Positions 797-6,256 of a stretch of 8,325 nt of DNA are shown piece by piece. The notes under the pieces are model-generated. The model did not search any database, had not been told where the DNA came from, and saw only the letters and a list, made by a program, of their open reading frames with translations. Origin of the DNA: Atribacteria bacterium SCGC AAA255-N14 (GTDB lineage Bacteria > Atribacterota > JS1 > SB-45 > 34-128); the NCBI GenBank assembly GCA_000405345.1, contig ASPC01000051.1:5761-14085 (forward strand), given 5' to 3'. Position numbers and translations under genes: made by a program. Numbering within the stretch: the stretch's first letter is position 1; every line of letters begins with the position of its first letter.

Positions 797-831
797 AGAA
801 GCCAGAAGACAGAATCCAGTATTCAGAATTA
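797..831 (+). repeat. Family B heptamer array, left arm of an inverted pair
   Basis: Five consecutive 7-nt units on the plus strand: AGAAGCC, AGAAGAC, AGAATCC, AGTATTC, AGAATTA. They are the reverse complement of the TTCTGAN-type units at 880-907, so the two arrays face each other across about 48 nt of AT-rich DNA and could form an imperfect hairpin or cruciform. The array lies inside the tRNA operon, just upstream of tRNA-Tyr. Confidence 0.75.
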
Positions 832-879
832 TTTTAGAATATAAGGTTATATTATTTTTTTAAGTTATTTTATATTTTT

Positions 880-942
880 CTGACTCCTGACTCCTGAATT
901 CTGATTTTCTTAACGCGATACTCGATACGCAATACGCGATAT
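880..942 (+). repeat. In-phase family B to family A heptamer array (9 units)
   Basis: Nine uninterrupted 7-nt units: CTGACTC twice, CTGAATT, CTGATTT, TCTTAAC, GCGATAC, TCGATAC, GCAATAC, GCGATAT. The sequence changes from the CTGACTC family to the CGATAC family without losing the 7-nt register. Its last 42 nt (901-942) match 5271-5312 at 37 of 42 positions, so this is also a dispersed repeat. With 797-831 it fills most of the 197-nt gap between the tRNA-Thr(TGT) and tRNA-Tyr genes. Confidence 0.8.
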
Positions 943-966
943 TATTTTATTTATTATCCTTTATCT

Positions 967-1042
967 TGGAGCCGATGATCCGGTTCGAACGGATGACCTG
1001 CTGATTACAAATCAGCTGCTCTGCCAACTGAGCTACATCGGC
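967..1042 (-). tRNA. tRNA-Thr (anticodon TGT)
   Basis: This 76-nt cloverleaf has acceptor GCCGATG (1036-1042) with its exact complement CATCGGC at 971-977, D arm with AGCTCAGTTGG, anticodon loop TTTGTAA giving TGT (reads ACA/ACG), T-loop GTTCGAACC, and an encoded CCA at 967-969. It is the first gene after the promoter at 1053-1081 and is equivalent in position to thrU of the E. coli thrU-tyrU-glyT-thrT-tufB unit. Confidence 0.97.
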
Positions 1043-1052
1043 AATTTTACAC

Positions 1053-1081
1053 ATTATAATTATTTTTTATAACTAAGTCAA
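1053..1081 (-). promoter_or_regulatory. Sigma-70 type promoter of the tRNA-tuf unit
   Basis: On the minus strand a -35 TTGACT (1076-1081) and a -10 TATAAT (1053-1058) are separated by 17 nt. Transcription would start around 1046, only a few bases before the mature 5' end of tRNA-Thr(TGT) at 1042, as usual for stable RNA operons. The sigH stop codon is 27 nt upstream of the -35. The intervening DNA has ATCTTTTTAAAAA twice (1081 and 1095), with no clear intrinsic terminator for sigH. Confidence 0.85.
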
Positions 1082-1107
1082 TCTTTTTAAAAACATCTTT
1101 TTAAAAA

Positions 1108-1740
1108 TTATTTCGTAATTAATTCTAACTTCCTTTTTATCCTTTGTAAAGCATTATCTATAGATTTTACATGCCTTCCTAAATCAACTGCAATTTCTTG
1201 ATAAGATTTAGCATCTAAATAAGATTCCAGAACATCTCTTTCTAAGTCTGATAATATTCTTTTGATTCTCACTTTAAGATTATTTAATTTTTCACCGTTT
1301 AAAAATAAATCCTGAGGATCATTAATGCTCATATTATCTACGATATCCAATAAAGTTCTGTCAGAATCCTCATTATAAATTGGTCTATTAAGAGACGTGT
1401 ATGAATTTAAAGGTATATGTTTTTGTCGAGTAGCACCTTTTATAGCTGTAATAATCTGCCGAGTAATACATAACTCAGCAAATGCTTTAAAAGAGGAAAG
1501 TTTTTTAAATTGATAATTTCTTACTGCTTTATAAAGTCCAATCATTCCTTCCTGAATAATATCTTCCGTATCAGCACCGATTAAGAAATAAGAGCGGGCC
1601 TTTATTTTTACTAATTTTTTATATCTATTAATCAAACATTCTTCTGCTAACAAATTTCCTTGGCAAGCTAAGTAAATGAGCTCTTCATCATCACAATTCC
1701 GGCAATTAACAGAACTTTTTTCCCCTTCTTTTAGCCTCAT
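1108..1740 (-). CDS. sigH: RNA polymerase sigma factor SigH (Spo0H family)
   Basis: This is a sigma-70 family alternative sigma factor that directs RNA polymerase to its own promoter set; in Bacillus it acts in stationary phase, competence and early sporulation. The 210 residues agree with the family along their whole length. Region 2 carries ARSYFLIGADTEDIIQEGM (48-66), followed by the 2.3/2.4 helix SFKAFAELCITRQIITAIK (83-101). RQKHIPLNSY (105-114) is nearly invariant in SigH. Region 4 has LSDLERDVL (163-171) and the helix-turn-helix SYQEIAVDLGRHVKSIDNAL (179-198). Start at 1738-1740 is supported by an AAGGAGGA complement at 1748-1755. The usual mrnC-rlmB-yacP genes between cysS and sigH are absent. 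Downstream it meets the tRNA operon, not rpmG-secE-nusG. Whether this organism sporulates cannot be told from here. N-terminal C13 and C16 form a CxxC that I do not interpret. Confidence 0.96.
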   Translation of the reverse strand: MRLKEGEKSSVNCRNCDDEELIYLACQGNLLAEECLINRYKKLVKIKARSYFLIGADTEDIIQEGMIGLYKAVRNYQFKKLSSFKAFAELCITRQIITAIKGATRQKHIPLNSYTSLNRPIYNEDSDRTLLDIVDNMSINDPQDLFLNGEKLNNLKVRIKRILSDLERDVLESYLDAKSYQEIAVDLGRHVKSIDNALQRIKRKLELITK

Positions 1741-1747
1741 TGGTTAT

Positions 1748-1755
1748 TCCTCCTT
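1748..1755 (-). promoter_or_regulatory. Shine-Dalgarno of sigH
   Basis: The minus strand reads AAGGAGGA, 7 nt before the ATG; it decides the start codon. I could not find a convincing sigH promoter in 1756-1860, which is repeat DNA. Confidence 0.75.
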
Positions 1756-1769
1756 AGAAATCTTATATA

Positions 1770-1818
1770 GCGTATTCTACTGCCCGTATCTCGTATGTCG
1801 TATATCGCATTTCATATA
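1770..1818 (+). repeat. Family A heptamer array (7 units) upstream of sigH
   Basis: Seven 7-nt units: GCGTATT, CTACTGC, CCGTATC, TCGTATG, TCGTATA, TCGCATT, TCATATA. This is the reverse orientation of the CGATAC family, with consensus NCGTATN. It ends 14 nt upstream of the sigH Shine-Dalgarno, so it lies in the 5' untranslated or promoter region of sigH. Confidence 0.75.
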
Positions 1819-1858
1819 GGACTAGTTAGTTGGTTAGTTAAATTAGTCATTAGTGAAT
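1819..1858 (+). repeat. Octamer array (5 units, TAGTNNNT type)
   Basis: Immediately next to the heptamers the period changes to 8: GGACTAGT, TAGTTGGT, TAGTTAAA, TTAGTCAT, TAGTGAAT. The shared core is TAGT. It is related in style to the octamers after the 132-residue gene at 5851-5944. Confidence 0.6.
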
Positions 1859-1867
1859 GGTATCAGA

Positions 1868-1923
1868 GCGTAAAGTTTAAAGCTAAAAACGCAAAACCAA
1901 AAATTAAAACTTAAAACTAAAGA
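1868..1923 (+). repeat. Family D heptamer array, A-rich arm (8 units)
   Basis: Eight 7-nt units: GCGTAAA, GTTTAAA, GCTAAAA, ACGCAAA, ACCAAAA, ATTAAAA, CTTAAAA, CTAAAGA. AAAACTTAAAAC at 1906-1917 is exactly complementary to 1962-1973, so this arm can pair with the T-rich arm that follows. Confidence 0.7.
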
Positions 1924-1926
1924 AAA

Positions 1927-2101
1927 AGTTTTGAATTTTGAATTATGGTTTTTCACTTTTCGTTTTAAGTTTTTAGTTTGATACTGACGCAATACACTCC
2001 TGCTTTTTTTCAAACTTGAAACTTGTAACCAGTAACTTGTCACTAATTACTCATTACTTATTACTATATTTCTATACGCTATACGCTAAACGCTGTACGC
2101 T
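1927..2101 (+). repeat. 25-unit phased heptamer array running into the cysS stop codon
   Basis: 175 nt divide without remainder into 25 seven-base units. From left to right these are T-rich family D (AGTTTTG, AATTTTG, AATTATG, GTTTTTC, ACTTTTC, GTTTTAA, GTTTTTA, GTTTGAT), a mixed stretch, then CAAACTT, GAAACTT, GTAACCA, GTAACTT, GTCACTA, ATTACTC, ATTACTT, ATTACTA, TATTTCT, and finally family A (ATACGCT twice, AAACGCT, GTACGCT). The period survives complete changes of sequence. The middle units (1976-2010) fit the period mainly by spacing, not by identity. The last unit overlaps the cysS stop codon at 2100-2102. Confidence 0.7.
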
Positions 2102-3521
2102 ATTTTACCCTCTTCCACCTTACTCCCTCAGGGGTATCTTCGAGAAGTATTCCTTTTTCCTTCAATTTATCTCTAATTTGATCTGATTCAACCCAATTCT
2201 TCTTTTTTCTCGCCTCTTCTCTCTCTTCAATTAATTTCTTGATTTCTTGCTCGAAGCTTTCTTCTTGATCAAAATCTTTCAAAATTCCCAATATTTCACC
2301 GGCTAATTCCTGATAATATTCAAGAATTTTTTCTAACACTTCTTTATTTTTTATGCCTGGAGAGTTCAGGTGGATATTTACCTCTCTGGCAAAACCAAAT
2401 AACCGGCTTAGGGCAACAGGGGAATTAAAATCATCATCCATAGCTTCTATAAATTTCTGTTGGCTCTTTCTTCTTTTTTCTAAGATACGCTCATCATTTT
2501 TATCTTTTAATTTTCTAAATTTACCCTGTTTTAATAAATGTTTTACGTTAAAAATTGTATTATTTAGTCTCTGTAAACTACTCTCTGCTTGTTGAAGCTG
2601 CTTTTCGCTAAAATTAAGGGGACTCCTATAATGAGCTGAAAGGATGAAATACCGAATTATTTCTCCTTTGTACTTCTGGTTAATATCTCTTACCTTCATT
2701 ATATTTCCTAAAGATTTAGACATTTTCTGATTATTTAAACAAAGGTAACCATTATGCATCCAGTATCTTACAAACTGTTGATTAGTGTAAGCTTCACTTT
2801 GGGCAATTTCATTTTCATGGTGAGGAAAAATCAGGTCTGATCCTCCAGCATGTATATCAAAAGTTTTTCCTAAATATTTCATCGACATAGCTGAACATTC
2901 AATATGCCAACCGGGTCTTCCCTTCCCCCAGGGGCTCTCCCATGAGGGTTCTCCTTCCTTCGCTCTTTTCCATAAGGCAAAATCTATGGGTTCCTTCTTT
3001 CTTTCATCTACTTCTACTCGAGCTCCCTCTTTTAGTTCTTCGATATTTTGACCAGAAAGTTTTCCGTAACTTTTAAATTTAGATACATTAAAAAATACAT
3101 CTCCATCTATTTCGTAAGCATATCCTTTTTCTTCTAATCCTTTAACCAGTTCTATTATTTCCTTGATATGTTCTGTTGCCCGAGGATGGACATCTGCTCT
3201 TTCTATATTAAGTGAATCAGCATCAATAAAATACTCTTGAATAAATATTTCCGCCAATTCTGAGACTGTAATCTTTAATTCTTTTGCTTTATTTATCATT
3301 TTATCATCTATATCAGTCAAGTTTTGTATGTATTTTACCTTATAACCCTTAAATTTTAGAAATCTTCTAACTACTTCAAAGATTATAAAAGGTCGAGCAT
3401 TCCCTATATGAATGTAATTATAAACTGTAGGTCCACAAATATACATGCTGACTTCGTCTTTTTTGAGAGGAACAAACTCCTCTTTTTTTCTTGTTAAAGT
3501 ATTGTATATCTTTAAAGGCAT
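2100..3521 (-). CDS. cysS: Cysteinyl-tRNA synthetase
   Basis: A cytosolic class I enzyme that charges tRNA-Cys with cysteine using ATP. With the start at 3519-3521 it has 473 residues, close to the usual 460-470. HIGN (38-41) is the HIGH signature and KMSKS (266-270) the second signature. The zinc ligands are C29, C209, H234 and E238, at the same numbers as in E. coli CysS. IERAD (106-110) and the HAGGSDLIFPHHENE block (224-238) are also typical. I prefer this ATG because MPLKIYNTLTRKKEEFVPL aligns with known N-termini and a GAGGGAAG ribosome site precedes it. An in-frame ATG at 3581 would add 20 residues translated from repeat DNA. The stop codon (2100-2102) lies at the edge of a heptamer array. 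A possible promoter is at 3553-3581. The usual gltX-cysE neighbours are missing. Confidence 0.97.
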   Translation of the reverse strand: MPLKIYNTLTRKKEEFVPLKKDEVSMYICGPTVYNYIHIGNARPFIIFEVVRRFLKFKGYKVKYIQNLTDIDDKMINKAKELKITVSELAEIFIQEYFIDADSLNIERADVHPRATEHIKEIIELVKGLEEKGYAYEIDGDVFFNVSKFKSYGKLSGQNIEELKEGARVEVDERKKEPIDFALWKRAKEGEPSWESPWGKGRPGWHIECSAMSMKYLGKTFDIHAGGSDLIFPHHENEIAQSEAYTNQQFVRYWMHNGYLCLNNQKMSKSLGNIMKVRDINQKYKGEIIRYFILSAHYRSPLNFSEKQLQQAESSLQRLNNTIFNVKHLLKQGKFRKLKDKNDERILEKRRKSQQKFIEAMDDDFNSPVALSRLFGFAREVNIHLNSPGIKNKEVLEKILEYYQELAGEILGILKDFDQEESFEQEIKKLIEEREEARKKKNWVESDQIRDKLKEKGILLEDTPEGVRWKRVK

Positions 3522-3552
3522 TTCTTTCTTCCCTCTCTTGCTTTGAACAAAT

Positions 3553-3581
3553 ATTTTATATAGCGAAAAACTAAAATTCAA
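3553..3581 (-). promoter_or_regulatory. Candidate promoter of cysS inside the repeat element
   Basis: The minus strand has TTGAAT (3576-3581), a 17-nt spacer and TAAAAT (3553-3558), about 32 nt before the preferred cysS start. The -35 lies in the A-rich arm of the family D repeat. In such AT-rich DNA a chance match is quite possible. Confidence 0.4.
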
Positions 3582-3637
3582 AAATAAAAATTAAGAAAAA
3601 ATTTTGAAATTTGAATTATGGTTTTTAGTTTTTCGCT
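3562..3637. repeat. Perfect 15-bp inverted repeat in the second family D element
   Basis: AGCGAAAAACTAAAA at 3562-3576 is the exact reverse complement of 3623-3637, with a 46-nt AT-rich loop that holds weaker complementary segments. It lies between the yacL stop and the cysS start, so the transcript could fold here. It lacks the GC-rich stem and clean U-tract of an intrinsic terminator. Confidence 0.7.
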
Positions 3638-3676
3638 TTTCGTTTTTAGTTTTTTCTCTAAACGCTCTACGCTATC
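3600..3676 (+). repeat. 11-unit heptamer array at the yacL 3' end (family D into A)
   Basis: Eleven 7-nt units: AATTTTG, AAATTTG, AATTATG, GTTTTTA, GTTTTTC, GCTTTTC, GTTTTTA, GTTTTTT, CTCTAAA, CGCTCTA, CGCTATC. The first seven match the start of the 1927-2101 array closely, including AATTATG followed by GTTTTT, so this is a second copy of one dispersed element. It stops 2 nt before the yacL stop codon. Confidence 0.75.
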
Positions 3677-3678
3677 CT

Positions 3679-4803
3679 TCATTTTCTCGAAGACAATCTA
3701 ACTACATTTTTAAATTCATTAGATTTTCTATCCCTTACACTTTTTACCCTACCAAAAATCATCCTACCGGCAGGAGTTTGCAAAATACTGGTCACTAAAA
3801 CATTCACCTTTTTCCCAATGTATTTGTGTCCATCTTCCACTACTATCATGGTACCGTCATCAAGATAAGCAATCCCCTGCTCCGGTTCTTTGCCTTCCTT
3901 TATTATTTGGGTATTCATTTCCTCGCCAGGTAGGATAACCGCTTTTAGAGCATTAGATAAATCATTGATATTCAAAACAGGAATACCCTCAAGCTGTGCA
4001 ACTTTATTCAAATTATAATCATTGGTTATTATTTTGGCTTTAATCTCTTTAGCAAGTCTAATTATCTTAGCATCAACCTCTTTGGGTTCATTGTAATCTT
4101 TGCCAACAATTCTTACCTTATTCTTTCTGATTTTAGTCATTTTATTAAGTATATCTAAACCTCGGCGCCCTCGGTTCCTTTTTAAAGAATCTGAAGAGTC
4201 GGCAATATGCTGGAGCTCAGACAAAACAAAACGAGGAATTATAAGTTCACCCTCTAAAAATTCTGTTTGGCAAATGTCTAAAATGCGACCATCAATAATT
4301 ACACTTGTATCTAAGATCTTGGGATAGACAAAATGCTTACTATTTTCTTTTCTTCTTACTTTATTAATATTTTTAAAATACCCAAAAAAATTGAATATTT
4401 CATCTTTTTTATTAATGCCTATATTTATACCTAAAGCTCCTAGTATTATGCTTAATACAATAGGAAGATAAGAACCAATAATGGGAATAAATGAGAGTGA
4501 GTAGGCTAACAAATTTGCAATAATAAGACCAATAATTAATCCAATTGTGGCAGTAGCAAAGTTTTGAGTGGGTATTTTTTGTAAATAGCAAATAATTTCT
4601 GAAAATAAACATTGGATTTTGGTATTAAATAAAAGGGAGAACAAAAAACCAACTGTTCCTCCTACGGCTATTGCTAAGATCTTGAATAAAACATCATAAT
4701 AAATATATAAGTCAGGAATAAAATAGAATACATTATATGCCTCATAGCCTATTACTGCGCCAACAATAATAAATATGATTTTTAAAATTCTTTTCACCGG
4801 CAT
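3679..4803 (-). CDS. yacL: YacL-like membrane protein with PIN nuclease and TRAM domains
   Basis: The 374 residues show an N-terminal membrane part with about four hydrophobic segments (roughly 7-29, 38-59, 84-104, 109-131). A PIN domain follows from about 160, starting [13 protein letters not shown]. Acidic residues fitting the PIN active site are D165, E196, D244 and D262 (IITNDYNL). A C-terminal TRAM-like domain lies at about 288-350, with the [16 protein letters not shown] block. PIN domains are often metal-dependent RNases and TRAM binds RNA, so a membrane-tethered RNA-processing role is plausible; the substrate is unknown to me. Start at 4801-4803 follows AAGGAGGA at 4811-4818. A consensus promoter at 5003-5031 gives a leader of about 190 nt. 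In Bacillus it follows radA-disA and precedes ispD; here disA is replaced by unrelated DNA and cysS comes next. Family assignment is firm, function is not. Confidence 0.93.
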
Positions 4804-4996
4804 AGTTATTTCCTCCTTCTTTGCGCTATTTTATTTATAAAAAGTATAGAAATATCACCTCCTTTTTTAATATTTCGCATTTTATAAATAATATCTTAAA
4901 TTATTTTTAATTTGATACTCATAACTCTAATATACTTATTTGCCCAAATACTAAATCTTCAAGCTCTTAAGTTATTCCTTTAATTCTCTGAAAACC
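4804..4996 (-). other. Long 5' leader of yacL with a second, perfect Shine-Dalgarno
   Basis: From the predicted start near 4996 the leader runs about 190 nt. At 4854-4863 the minus strand carries AGGAGGTGAT, a full match to the 16S rRNA 3' end, stronger than the real yacL site at 4811-4818. No ATG, GTG or TTG sits at a good distance behind it. An ATT codon 4 nt after AGGAGG would open a 15-codon frame ending in TAA inside the yacL ribosome site. I see no known riboswitch or T-box motif. Confidence 0.5.
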
Positions 4997-5002
4997 AAAT
5001 AA

Positions 5003-5031
5003 ATTATAGCATGCTCCCTTATTTCTGTCAA
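5003..5031 (-). promoter_or_regulatory. Consensus extended -10 promoter of yacL
   Basis: The minus strand reads TTGACA (5026-5031), 17 nt, TATAAT (5003-5008), with TGC directly before the -10 (extended -10). All twelve core bases match the sigma-70 consensus. It shows yacL is transcribed separately from radA and is probably strongly and constitutively expressed. The -35 is only about 10 nt outside the inverted-repeat stretch at 5041-5316. Confidence 0.92.
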
Positions 5032-5045
5032 AATAAGAATTTACT

Positions 5046-5080
5046 TCGTATTGCGTATTGCGTATCGAGTATCGCGTGAA
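5046..5080 (+). repeat. Family A heptamer array, left terminus of an inverted pair
   Basis: Five units: TCGTATT, GCGTATT, GCGTATC, GAGTATC, GCGTGAA. Its reverse complement aligns with 5278-5316: both read C-T-T-C-A-C-G-C-G, then TACTCGATACGCAATACGC, then TACGAA. Similarity runs a few bases inward (GAAGAAAA). This makes long terminal inverted repeats around a core of about 190 nt. Confidence 0.78.
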
Positions 5081-5270
5081 GAAAAAACTATAGAAAAATA
5101 GATAAAAAACAAAAATAATAAATATTCTTTTCTTTTTCCTGCTACCCCACTAAAGTTTACACTAACATTATTTGAATTGCCTAAATAATAATTATTAACC
5201 ATAGATAAATAGACAGATGAAACGCCTGTACTGCTTTGGGTACAATACATCGTACCCATACTTCTTAATT
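5081..5270. other. AT-rich core between inverted heptamer arrays; no convincing gene
   Basis: A minus-strand frame of 72 codons (5041-5259) spans this core but has no ribosome site, and its end is translated repeat, so I do not call it. The core has one neat hairpin: TGGGTAC (5237-5243), an 8-nt loop, GTACCCA (5252-5258). It separates two strong promoters that fire outward. Whether it is a mobile element, a decayed gene or a spacer cannot be decided here. Confidence 0.5.
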
Positions 5271-5312
5271 CTGGTTTTCTTCACGCGCTACTCGATACGC
5301 AATACGCTATAC
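5271..5312 (+). repeat. Family B/A heptamer array, right terminus of the inverted pair
   Basis: Six units: CTGGTTT, TCTTCAC, GCGCTAC, TCGATAC, GCAATAC, GCTATAC. It matches 901-942 at 37 of 42 bases in the same orientation and is the inverted partner of 5046-5080. It ends 11 nt before the -35 of the plus-strand promoter. Confidence 0.8.
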
Positions 5313-5323
5313 GAATATATTCC

Positions 5324-5353
5324 TTGACAAAGAGCTTAACCTGTAAGTATAAT
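5324..5353 (+). promoter_or_regulatory. Promoter of the 132-residue gene
   Basis: TTGACA (5324-5329), an 18-nt spacer and TATAAT (5348-5353) match the sigma-70 consensus at all twelve core positions. Transcription should begin near 5360, giving an untranslated leader of about 87 nt. It diverges from the yacL promoter. Confidence 0.88.
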
Positions 5354-5446
5354 TAAATAAAGCTGAAATTGATAATTTTAGTAATTTCATTAAAACTATC
5401 TCGGTATTTCTCTAAATAGCAAAATGCTTTCACGGGGGTACTAATT

Positions 5447-5845
5447 ATGAATAAAGAAAATGGAAATGTTACTTTTCAAAAAAGTGTCGACCAATTTTTA
5501 ATCCAGCATCGAAGTATCCTTGACCTTATGACTAAATATCAAGAATCTAATGCCCGAGTAAACCGTGCAATTGCTAAAGCGGTTACCCAATGCGGTTGTA
5601 TAAAAATTAAAGCAAAGAAACAAATCATTCCTTCTAATGCAAAATTAACGGAAATCTATAAATTTATGGATACCCATATAGAAGGTTCATTGTGTAATAG
5701 TTGTAAAGAAATTATCGAAACAGAATTAGGTTCCAGTCTTTTTTACGCCACCGCAATATGTAACGTACTAAATTTAGATTTTGATGAAATAATTAAAAAA
5801 GAAGAAGAAAGAATATCAACTTTAGGGATTTATAATCTTACATAA
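5447..5845 (+). CDS. Conserved-looking 132-residue protein with paired cysteines, unknown function
   Basis: This is the only plus-strand gene. It has its own consensus promoter and a GGGGG ribosome site 8 nt before the ATG (5447), so it is very probably real. It is soluble-looking and mostly helical. The N-terminal part has SILDLMTKYQESNARVNRAI (23-42), then TQCGC (C49, C51) and a basic stretch. GSLCNSC (C83, C86) follows, so a CxC and a CxxC could bind a metal. The end, ETELGSSLFYATAICNVL (91-108) followed by DEIIKKEEERI, has a MazG-like look but lacks clear MazG acidic motifs. From memory it resembles a small family of about 130 residues in Clostridia found near radA/disA; I am not sure of its Pfam name. 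It sits exactly where disA stands in Firmicutes, but inverted. Its stop codon lies in a 28-bp palindrome. Confidence 0.85.
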   Translation: MNKENGNVTFQKSVDQFLIQHRSILDLMTKYQESNARVNRAIAKAVTQCGCIKIKAKKQIIPSNAKLTEIYKFMDTHIEGSLCNSCKEIIETELGSSLFYATAICNVLNLDFDEIIKKEEERISTLGIYNLT

Positions 5846-5865
5846 TTGGTTAACCAATTATGTAA
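5838..5865. repeat. Perfect 28-bp palindrome over the stop codon
   Basis: Positions 5838-5865 equal their own reverse complement for all 28 bases, centred on GGTTAACC. The TAA stop (5843-5845) of the 132-residue gene lies inside. As RNA it gives a 12-bp stem with a 4-nt loop. It lacks a following U-tract, so it is not a standard intrinsic terminator, but it could serve as a 3' stabilising hairpin. It forms where octamers of opposite orientation (ATTGGTNA and TNACCAAT) meet. Confidence 0.85.
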
Positions 5866-5944
5866 TTAACCGATTGACCAATTAGCCAATTCTCCAATTA
5901 AATTAGTCTACCAGTCCACCAGTCACCCGGTCTTCCAGTCTACT
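5851..5944 (+). repeat. Octamer arrays (AATTNNCC then AGTCNACC)
   Basis: Five units AATTAACC, GATTGACC, AATTAGCC, AATTCTCC, AATTAAAT (5864-5903), one extra T, then AGTCTACC, AGTCCACC, AGTCACCC, GGTCTTCC, AGTCTACT (5905-5944). The period is 8, not 7. Half of each unit (CC plus neighbours) is shared across both families, which suggests one drifted into the other. The array lies in the convergent 3' region between the 132-residue gene and radA. Confidence 0.75.
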
Positions 5945-6009
5945 TAGCCGTTAATATTTGATTTGTTCTTTTCTCTTCTTCACACTACCTGCTTATCCTC
6001 ACACAATAT

Positions 6010-6079
6010 GCAATACTAGTTTATTCTGAATTCTGACTCTTGGATACTGACTTCTTTACTAGATACGATTCACGAGATA
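6010..6079 (+). repeat. Mixed heptamer array (10 units)
   Basis: GCAATAC, TAGTTTA, TTCTGAA, TTCTGAC, TCTTGGA, TACTGAC, TTCTTTA, CTAGATA, CGATTCA, CGAGATA. The centre is family B, as at 880-907; the edges look like family A. After it, 6080-6203 is pyrimidine-rich on the plus strand, without a recognisable gene, promoter or terminator. Confidence 0.6.
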
Positions 6080-6203
6080 AGAATAAGGTTTCTTTACTTA
6101 TCGCTGTATTTTATTCTATCTTCTTTTTTCTTTCTCTCAGTTTTCCTTTTCTTTACTATATACTAAATACTAATTTGTCCTGACTTCGGGTTTCTTGTTT
6201 TTT

Positions 6204-6252
6204 CTTAGCTATGCGCTAATGCACGCGATACTCGATACGCGATACTCGATAC
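6204..6252 (+). repeat. Family A heptamer array at the radA 3' end (7 units)
   Basis: CTTAGCT, ATGCGCT, AATGCAC, GCGATAC, TCGATAC, GCGATAC, TCGATAC. The last four are the cleanest tandem copies in the window: a 14-nt dimer repeated exactly twice. The array ends 4 nt before the radA stop codon. Confidence 0.8.
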
Positions 6253-6256
6253 GAAT

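Follow-up and report, generated by a model that had tools for sequence, protein, structure and literature searches.

Heptamer and Octamer Arrays Between the Genes of an Uncultured Atribacterota Bacterium Are Probably Arms of Small Elements Carrying an S23/IVP Gene

We analysed a stretch of 8,325 nucleotides from Atribacteria bacterium SCGC AAA255-N14 (assembly GCA_000405345.1, contig ASPC01000051.1, positions 5,761 to 14,085 of the forward strand; called the window below), whose intergenic gaps hold tandem arrays of 7-nt and 8-nt units. The DNA is chromosomal and comes from an uncultured member of the Atribacterota (JS1). Its genes appear to be, in this order, the start of EF-Tu, tRNA-Thr, tRNA-Tyr, tRNA-Thr, a sigma factor, cysS, a PIN/TRAM-like gene, a small open reading frame (ORF), radA and clpC; the names other than those of the tRNAs were read off the translations without a family search, and an Rfam scan at gathering scores returned tRNAs only. 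This report concerns the arrays and their relation to genes for the S23 or 23S rRNA intervening sequence protein (IVP; PF05635, a four helix bundle, Avd-like), which lie between such arrays in related genomes. None of the listed ORFs reads by eye as an IVP, and the window holds arrays alone.

A preliminary description of this DNA had claimed 7-nt arrays in nearly every gap and almost only between genes. The arrays are real: over the seven gaps that are 40 bp or longer (1911 bp in total) the self-identity at lag 7 is 0.434, and 200 dinucleotide shuffles give 0.301 (z 13.0). Harmonics are present at lag 14 (z 8.3) and lag 21 (z 5.2), and lag 8 has a smaller excess (z 4.0). The lag-7 excess over dinucleotide shuffles rules out chance in AT-rich DNA as the source of the arrays. 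Coding DNA has no lag-7 excess (z -0.7; 6138 bp in seven segments that are 200 bp or longer, tRNAs excluded). Tandem Repeats Finder (TRF) gave 28 rows for the window, of which all 16 rows with period 7 lie between genes; two of the four rows with period 8 are located inside cysS. The position between genes was thus largely borne out. Five of the seven gaps carry arrays (770–966, 1741–2099, 3523–3678, 4804–5446 and 5846–6256); gap 514–593 has no TRF row and gap 1043–1107 just a 14-nt repeat.

The same signal is found elsewhere than in the window. In six related genomes (genomes are numbered G and loci L) the array windows per lag numbered 4 at lag 5, 3 at lag 6, 161 at lag 7, 102 at lag 8, 2 at lag 9, 9 at lag 10, 6 at lag 11 and 8 at lag 12, and only lags 7 and 8 are enriched; the contigs for this count were picked for a CGATACG pattern, except for 20 contigs of G001 (C1–C20). 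These 20 unselected contigs have a lag-7 z of 12.5. Stretches of two contigs of G012 gave z 12.4 at lag 7 and 11.3 at lag 8, and weaker lag-7 peaks were seen within the same family in G014 (3.6), G013 (2.4) and G010 (1.6; lag 8 4.3). The tested stretches of the outgroups G015, G016, G026, G027, G029 and G033 showed no lag-7 peak (at most 2.2); runs of N were left in all genome stretches. The pattern CGATACNCGATACG occurs in 9/9 genomes of the nearest genus, in 4/5 of the rest of the family, in 1/10 of the rest of the order and in 0/37 beyond it (14/61 in total). Short tandemly repeated repetitive (STRR) sequences are degenerate 7-nt head-to-tail units that are intergenic and dispersed, and according to the lag analyses of the window, the relatives and the gap types the window-type arrays are STRRs in this sense. 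Degenerate heptanucleotide hairpins are found in Nostoc tRNA-Leu introns, and STRRs are said to have been described in RNase P RNA by Vioque in 1997.

The different unit families had been described as following each other in register, as if one sequence were shifting. This did not hold, as the lag-7 match breaks at the junctions concerned (approximately 901–912, 1973–2008 and 2059–2071). A single array drifting in register was rejected because the match is lost at these junctions. Nor are the arrays one drifting microsatellite; they form inverted arms. Over 44 spacers of at most 60 nucleotides between neighbouring arrays some lag-7 excess is kept (0.448 versus 0.25–0.33 at lags 5, 6, 8 and 9). 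The inverted arms had been overlooked; 5045–5085, for example, pairs with 5275–5315. The arrays are listed here with their arm families (F1 to F9); shared 9-mers are those in common with arms of IVP genes in relatives.

797–822, plus strand: left arm of a solo element, CAGAAG(N) family F9 (797–815 shares 9-mers with the arms of IVP loci L234 and L239; TRF 792–819).
876–907, minus strand: right arm TTCTGAC, the reverse complement of CAGAAG(N), F9 (shared 9-mers; TRF 880–897).
911–941, minus strand: arm of the CGTATCG/GATACG family F1 (shared 9-mers; TRF 913–941).
1766–1807, plus strand: left arms AGCGTA (F6, 1766–1774), CGTATCT (F2, 1785–1796) and CGTATGT (F1, 1791–1807) (shared 9-mers; TRF 1785–1818).
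1823–1858, plus strand: TAGTTAGTTGGTTAGTTA (octamer family F8, 1823–1840), then TTAGTCATTAGTGAAT (F4, 1843–1858) (shared 9-mers).
1872–1980, no strand assigned: A/T-rich inverted pair AAAACTA.../...GTTTTTAG, F7-like, with arms 1872–1918 and 1927–1973 of 47 nt, 74% complementary (inverted-repeat search, arm comparison).
2009–2066, minus strand: array AAACTTG, then GTAACTT, then ATTACTC (2042–2066 shares 9-mers with the arms of the KDLEVW IVP subtype, F5; TRF 2042–2066).
2072–2103, minus strand: right arm CTATACGCTATACGCTAAACGCTGTACGCTAT, F6, KDLIVW IVP subtype (shared 9-mers; TRF 2072–2103).
3562–3655, no strand assigned: solo inverted element of the GTTTTTAG family F7, with arms 3562–3597 and 3602–3637, 78% complementary, the array running on to 3655; the gap folds with z -3.5 (inverted-repeat search, shared 9-mers).
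3658–3675, minus strand: F6 arm remnant CTAAACGCTCTACGCTAT (shared 9-mers).
5045–5085, plus strand: left arm TTCGTATTGCGTATTGCGTATCGAGTATCGCGTGAAGAAAA, F1, of the clearest solo element (inverted-repeat search, shared 9-mers).
5086–5274, no strand assigned: interior of this element, without IVP gene (alignment to L006).
5275–5315, minus strand: its right arm TTTTCTTCACGCGCTACTCGATACGCAATACGCTATACGAA, F1 (41 nt, 95% complementary to 5045–5085).
5846–5943, plus strand: octamer arrays of the CCAATT and CCAGTC kind, F8, EEL..W IVP subtype (TRF 5864–5901 and 5905–5943, period 8/16; shared 9-mers).
6025–6079, minus strand: TTCTGAC remnant (F9, 6030–6039) and TACTAGATACGATTCACGAGATA (F2, 6057–6079) (shared 9-mers).
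6149–6174, minus strand: TACTATATACTAAATACTAAT, F3/F4 type (TRF, shared 9-mers).
6223–6253, minus strand: ACGCGATACTCGATACGCGATACTCGATACG, F1/F3, adjoining radA (TRF, shared 9-mers).

Altogether, 716 of 1948 intergenic bases of the window lie in 9-mers common to its arrays and the IVP arms of relatives, compared with a mean of 189 and a maximum of 274 of 1911 in shuffled gaps and with 550/6377 in genic DNA. Gap 770–966 folds with z -3.1. The small ORF (5447–5845, plus strand, 132 aa) is flanked by two array-filled gaps and conserved in several relatives; its sole Pfam match, PF07159 (CYRIA-B Rac1-binding, 26.7 bits), is probably meaningless.

PF05635 is matched in 15 of 19 Atribacterota genomes, with 71 matches, some of which are fragments of one gene (one match has an E value of 9.4e-42). 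We examined 49 IVP loci (30 plus 19 further matches, a twentieth stretch having duplicated a locus), 48 of which were testable with flanks of at least 60 bp. A locus was counted as armed if an inverted pair scored at least 14 and its periodicity at 7 or 8 nt was 0.6 or more; since this criterion was fixed after a first look at the loci, it is independent of the later samples but not of the Atribacterota count. For IVP genes the flanking sequence began at the edges of the protein match (220 nt in the first pass, 240 nt in the final one), and for control genes at the ORF edges (220 nt for Atribacterota, 240 nt for the diverse phyla). Paired inverted 7- or 8-nt arms flank 39/48 Atribacterota IVP genes (38/48 with the control-matched 220-nt flanks). 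Only 20/787 control ORFs from array-rich Atribacterota genomes pass (5/230 of those shorter than 200 aa), and this rate is raised because the control contigs were mostly picked for CGATACG arrays. Around radA in diverse phyla 2/691 control ORFs pass, both at one solo element in L037, where a search for an IVP found none.

IVP genes are armed outside the Atribacterota as well. In 116 genomes around G056, 40 have PF05635 matches; 30 loci were retrieved, and 21 of the 29 testable ones are armed. On cyanobacterial plasmids 8 of 12 loci, taken from 43 records with a PF05635 match, are armed, with units such as TAGGGAG, CAGGGAA and GGGAAAA. A further set of 34 loci (30 from 23 genomes and four from additional plasmids) yielded 21 armed ones, from Nitrospira, Bacteroidetes, Desulfobacterales/-aceae, Anaerolineales, Clostridiaceae, Gemmatirosa, Azospirillum, Picosynechococcus and Leptolyngbya. 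The samples outside the Atribacterota thus give 50/75 and all samples together 89/123. On the cyanobacterial plasmids L279, L281 and L284 have an array of the GTCAGGA type with a 3′ partner that extends into the stop codon; at L276 there is no array upstream of the IVP. At L244, L248, L261, L263 and L320 an array is by eye apparently present on one side of the IVP alone; such loci are possibly decayed or captured copies and useful for learning how the elements die.

The arm family goes with the type of IVP. Among the Atribacterota loci, similarity of arm 6-mers correlates with IVP identity (Mantel r 0.61, reached in 0/2000 permutations; 717 pairs after 24 flank-similar pairs had been dropped). 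Arm words are common (cosine above 0.1) to 41/50 pairs with at least 0.8 IVP identity and to 7/500 pairs below 0.6, and within single genomes to 5/5 and 0/42 pairs, respectively. Each IVP subtype tends toward an arm family of its own:

Subtype KDLRIWQKGIEI: arm CGTATCG or CGTATAT.
Subtype QDLRIWQ: arm AGTATCG.
Subtype KDLNIW: arm TTAGTCG.
Subtype KDLEVW: arm AGTAATG.
Subtype KDLIVW: arm TAGCGTA.
Subtype KKLKVW: arm GTTTTTA.
Subtype EEL..W: octamer arms.
Subtypes QDLIVWQKSY and KDLKVC: CAGAAG-like arms.

The families that the preliminary description took for one shifting sequence therefore look like the arm types of different IVP subtypes, as both this correlation and the shared 9-mers indicate. 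Unit length also follows the protein. On a quick tree of 68 IVPs, which has few columns and many open forks, a unit of 7 versus 8 or 9 nucleotides requires five changes, compared with a mean of 7.7 in shuffles (five or fewer in 3/1000); the tree holds 67 of the 68 armed loci outside the 34-locus set, one being too short, and L251, which has a 9-nt unit and was added by hand though it fails the criterion. Architecture and step are kept and the letters drift per protein subtype, since unit length follows the IVP tree and across phyla the letters barely follow the protein; the earlier claim of a constant length with a drifting sequence is thereby upheld. On the IVP strand the 5′ arm has more G than C at 60 of 68 loci, more C than G at seven and a tie at one, and more G than C at 20/21 armed loci of the 34-locus set. 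The two arms of one element match each other better than arms across the family in 20/32 cases (p 0.034). This slight difference favours a family-wide constraint over copying from arm to arm, and hairpin-templated arm copying has weak support. The preliminary description had suggested either a copying process with a fixed step or selection on spacing. The observations are better matched by a unit that its own protein constrains than by a copying machinery running freely.

We read the window arrays as inverted terminal arms of small elements with S23/IVP as their sole gene, present here as solo, nested and mostly orphaned remnants, and put the probability of this reading at about 0.85. The observations that carry it are the arms above controls, the match of subtype and arm, the unit length on the tree, and the co-orientation, the dN/dS below 1 and the exchange at orthologous sites described below. 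That such arrays are IVP arms is very likely. A different origin would be replication slippage, which would make the arrays ordinary heptamer and octamer microsatellites without a protein of their own, the IVP genes merely lying in repeat-rich gaps. Slippage would fit the whole-unit differences between orthologs, the arrays in genomes without a detected IVP and their position chiefly between genes; it does not account for enrichment at lags 7 and 8 alone and not at 5, 6 or 9, for the same family being mirrored on both sides of the IVP so much more often than around other ORFs, or for family and unit length tracking the IVP type. Armed IVP genes are also present in genomes whose radA stretches (up to approximately 21 kb) have few arrays, and we consider slippage very improbable.

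IVP genes are mostly co-directional with their surroundings. The tally of the 49 Atribacterota loci is 39 co-directional with both neighbours, one opposite to both, two too distant and seven without a called gene on both sides, which gives 39/40 judged loci; tandem gaps make up 336/397 gaps in these genomes anyway (61/397 are non-tandem), and arrays are found in every gap type. In the 34-locus set both neighbours point along the IVP at 23 loci and both against it at none, the remainder being mixed or uncalled on one side. The cyanobacterial plasmid copies L273, L276 and L283 oppose both neighbours. The median dN/dS of IVP genes is 0.40 (184 pairs), with 0.12–0.56 in the 11 closest pairs with usable dS. 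On the cyanobacterial plasmids L275, L278 and L341 the IVP lies between cas6 and cas4 (twice) and between Cas10/Cmr2 and Cmr3, which may be operon insertion and not a CRISPR function; '23S rRNA IVP' is named among the domains in a figure legend of a CRISPR survey (PMC10910872).

No function is known for S23/IVP proteins according to PMC4990558. The same report describes the intervening sequence (IVS) in the 23S rRNA of C. burnetii, which is 428 nt long, has tandem heptamers in strain-variable number before the S23 ORF and ends in terminal inverted repeats, and it relates older proposals that the IVS is a mobile element. The elements described here resemble it in the protein family and in being small, with one ORF between inverted repeats, but they lie between protein genes, their arms are 7- or 8-nt arrays of many families, and there are dispersed solo copies. 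No insertion in a 23S rRNA helix was found among the loci with annotated or called neighbours, all of which are between protein genes (23S genes were not searched for more copies). The C. burnetii report is also the nearest precedent for a link between arrays and S23 (PMC4990558). The open literature searched contained no paper that ties heptamer arrays generally to S23/IVP genes; preprints and most subscription papers lay outside this search and may hold prior notice.

The likeness to the IVS invites a reading in which the element acts mainly at the level of RNA: the arms are a stem of the transcript, insertion inside an operon is tolerated because RNase III can cut this stem, and spread is rare and proceeds by recombination or reverse transcription. 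It would agree with the co-directional gene-bearing copies, with the fold of the window element at 5040–5320 (z -9.4), with the IVPs standing in line between cas genes and with the processing of the C. burnetii IVS by RNase III (PMC4990558). Solo arrays are, however, also present in divergent and convergent gaps, three plasmid copies oppose both neighbours, and a reverse transcriptase (PF00078) is matched in just 4/19 genomes, many of them incomplete; we regard this reading as unlikely. Reverse-transcriptase copying was rejected as a general route, as 15/19 genomes, many of them incomplete drafts, are without a PF00078 match. Homology of IVP and Avd, an accessory protein of diversity-generating retroelements, is stated in PMC10053308. 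The match of IVP to bAvd (E 1.3e-8, 35.7 bits; Avd PF22296, 4DWL) is below the Pfam cut-off of 40. In contrast to those retroelements, most genomes here lack a reverse transcriptase match, the neighbours of the four matches not having been inspected. We know of no nuclease activity of an IVP.

Orthologous gaps were compared among relatives, and left arrays are mirrored there by right arrays. L006 7391–7669 matches window 5045–5316 at 85% on the strand opposite to its neighbours, that is, the interior of the element is flipped there. The gap beside radA measures 411 bp in the window, 106 to 418 bp in six other relatives measured and 12 bp in L001 and L004, apparently a single contig with two names. 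One composite element in G005 encloses an S23/IVP-like ORF. At a first site, where one of nine loci was not bridgeable, an IVP element is present in G005, a solo element of 120 bp with CGTATCT arms in G004, and other families in G006 (169 bp); the gap is 426 bp in G003, 111 in G008, 87 in G010, 62 in G013 and 24 in G002, and in G014 the anchors abut. At a second site (four of 11 loci not bridgeable) an IVP element is present in G003 and its arm family, lacking the gene, in G010 (148 bp); G014 has 61 bp, and G001, G002, G005, G012 and G013 carry other families (209 to 539 bp). Both the site comparison and the 9-mer sharing show that solo elements have arm families in common with IVP elements. 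An IVP next to a serS-like gene (identity read by eye) is common to G005, G006, G010 and G011; its 3′ arm is by eye approximately two heptamers longer in G006 than in G005, as the preliminary description had expected of orthologs.

This shared site would suit host-useful operon spacers, that is domesticated terminators or mRNA-stabilising stems together with a regulatory S23 protein under host selection, as it shows long retention; dN/dS below 1 and the co-orientation would suit them too. Such spacers are improbable, since orthologous sites in relatives are empty, solo or of another family and the gap adjoining radA varies from 12 to 418 bp.

Repetitive extragenic palindromes (REP) and REPINs with the REP-associated tyrosine transposase (RAYT), and miniature inverted-repeat transposable elements (MITEs), are non-autonomous inverted-repeat elements multiplied between genes by the protein of a parent. 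The solo copies described here are likewise non-autonomous and carry the arms of parent elements; their arms differ in being drifting 7- or 8-nt arrays. Short GC-rich hairpins of the GGGCAGACACAAGGTCTGCCCCTAC, GACAGGCGAGACGCCTGTCCTAC and GGGCGTATGCAATACGCCCCTAC types recur within elements (the cysS-yacL gap of L003 and L006, L157 13190–13700, and L302) and apparently make up another class of small dispersed repeat, nested in the first. A stretch of about 64 nt downstream of the IVP element in L145 (9238–9301) is found at dozens of places in related genomes among the matches listed and is probably another dispersed repeat. We assigned no transposase to the elements. Movement of REP/REPIN-like repeats by a Y1 (RAYT) transposase, with IVP as a passenger, could draw on the transposase matches in 17/19 genomes and on the hairpin-type short inserts. 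It is hardly credible, given that the arm family tracks the IVP subtype and that G013 and G015, which have no IVP match, have Y1 matches (4 and 2) and no clear lag-7 peak (z 2.4 and -2.1). As the sole agent the Y1 transposase was rejected, because it is also present where arrays are weak.

Several observations weigh against the arrays being arms of IVP elements. G002 and G013 have CGATACG arrays and no PF05635 match; these arrays are either relics, or the gene is absent from the draft. Conversely, G010, G016 and G033 hold IVP, and in the stretches sampled their lag-7 peak is weak or absent (z 1.6, 2.2 and -0.3); IVP number did not go with arrays at radA loci (rho -0.01 in 45 genomes, with 10 period-7/8 arrays in all). 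The arm criterion is failed by 34/123 loci; some of these carry an array on one side alone, units of 9 nt or a 3′ arm that extends into the stop codon, and L226, L229 and L271 have no arms at all. Across phyla the correlation of arm letters and IVP is r 0.05 (48/2000), the 5′ arm is C-rich or equal at 9/89 armed loci, and the arms within one element match just slightly better than those across the family. In the window, no inverted pair of at least 14 nt is listed for gaps 770–966 and 5846–6256, two of the five array gaps, and the latter folds no better than shuffles (z 1.0). The solo F7 elements run in reversed polarity, as does the F7-like pair at 1872–1980 relative to F7 IVP genes. Among 20 cases of neighbouring CGTATC/GATACG arrays less than 700 bp apart, just 11 are inward-inverted, three being outward and six direct. 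Site comparisons read by eye showed no clear target-site duplication, and no movement was seen. For Nostoc PCC 7120, few paired arrays, none on plasmids, and no general link to mobile elements are reported (PMC4692102).

Other heptamer arrays are known. The units are GGGGA(C/T)T in Nostoc and GGGAATC in Xanthomonas, and X. campestris has 70 cases of two close arrays in convergent orientation (PMC4692102). The GGGAATC arrays published for X. campestris number 186. The STRRs are similar to the arrays described here as degenerate, intergenic and dispersed heptamers, and the IVP arms on cyanobacterial plasmids are similar heptamers; a difference is that PMC4692102, in the parts drawn on, names no partner gene. 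XCC0516 of X. campestris is a close solved relative of IVP (2gsc, E 1.2e-23), whose structure is a toroidal pentamer of four-helix bundles (PMC4990558). The TAACTGA heptamers of the Beggiatoaceae are plentiful between genes and patchy across phyla, and a repeat-binding protein is imagined there as a mobile element (PMC4679880). Their sets differ in being mostly direct, with one inverted, and neither 'S23' nor 'four helix' occurs in PMC4679880.

The elements are best read as akin to the selfish 23S rRNA intervening sequences. In an intact one, at least two 7- or 8-nt units joined head to tail would form the 5′ arm, which is mostly rich in G on the IVP strand. A short spacer would separate this arm from the IVP gene, whose direction would be that of the genes around it, and beyond the gene a 3′ arm would carry the reverse complement of the 5′ unit family; every IVP subtype would have a unit family and a unit length of its own. 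Within this family of the Atribacterota the elements would have multiplied, many copies being gene-less, one-armed or nested, and solo copies would form much of the window's gaps. Recognition of the arms by their own IVP is rather probable. IVP might bind its heptad array as single-stranded DNA or as an RNA or DNA hairpin and thereby make the element mobile or protect it, and the fixed unit length would then be the footprint of the protein, with the letters drifting within its tolerance. IVP expression might depend on host read-through, which would explain the co-directional survival of gene-bearing copies. The dN/dS values, the orientation, the solved relative and the reverse transcriptase data favour arm recognition by IVP, with movement as DNA or tolerance as RNA both possible. 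How the elements move we infer: mobility at the DNA level is close to an even bet as the main route, and the odds that action at the RNA level (IVS-like excision from transcripts, an RNase III-cut stem) plays a part are somewhat below even.

More tentatively still, S23/IVP could represent a wide and largely unrecognised class of mobile elements with ends set by a fixed step and not by a fixed sequence. A protein ring would read or copy a 7-nt repeat (8- or 9-nt in other clades) and tolerate drift of its letters, whereby each lineage would rewrite its own ends; the cyanobacterial heptamer STRRs, the Xanthomonas GGGAATC arrays and those in the Atribacterota gaps would be mostly orphaned arms. 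The heptamer repeats of cyanobacteria, Xanthomonas and Beggiatoaceae have so far been without an agreed origin (PMC4692102, PMC4679880). Through the link to IVP the repeats gain a candidate maker or reader and S23/IVP gains a candidate substrate, which turns both puzzles into simple binding and mobility tests; as the same kind of arms surrounds IVP genes in several other phyla, the origin of such repeats becomes testable. If true, the link would explain a fixed unit length with drifting letters and would bring in a type of mobile element with ends set by step length and not by sequence.

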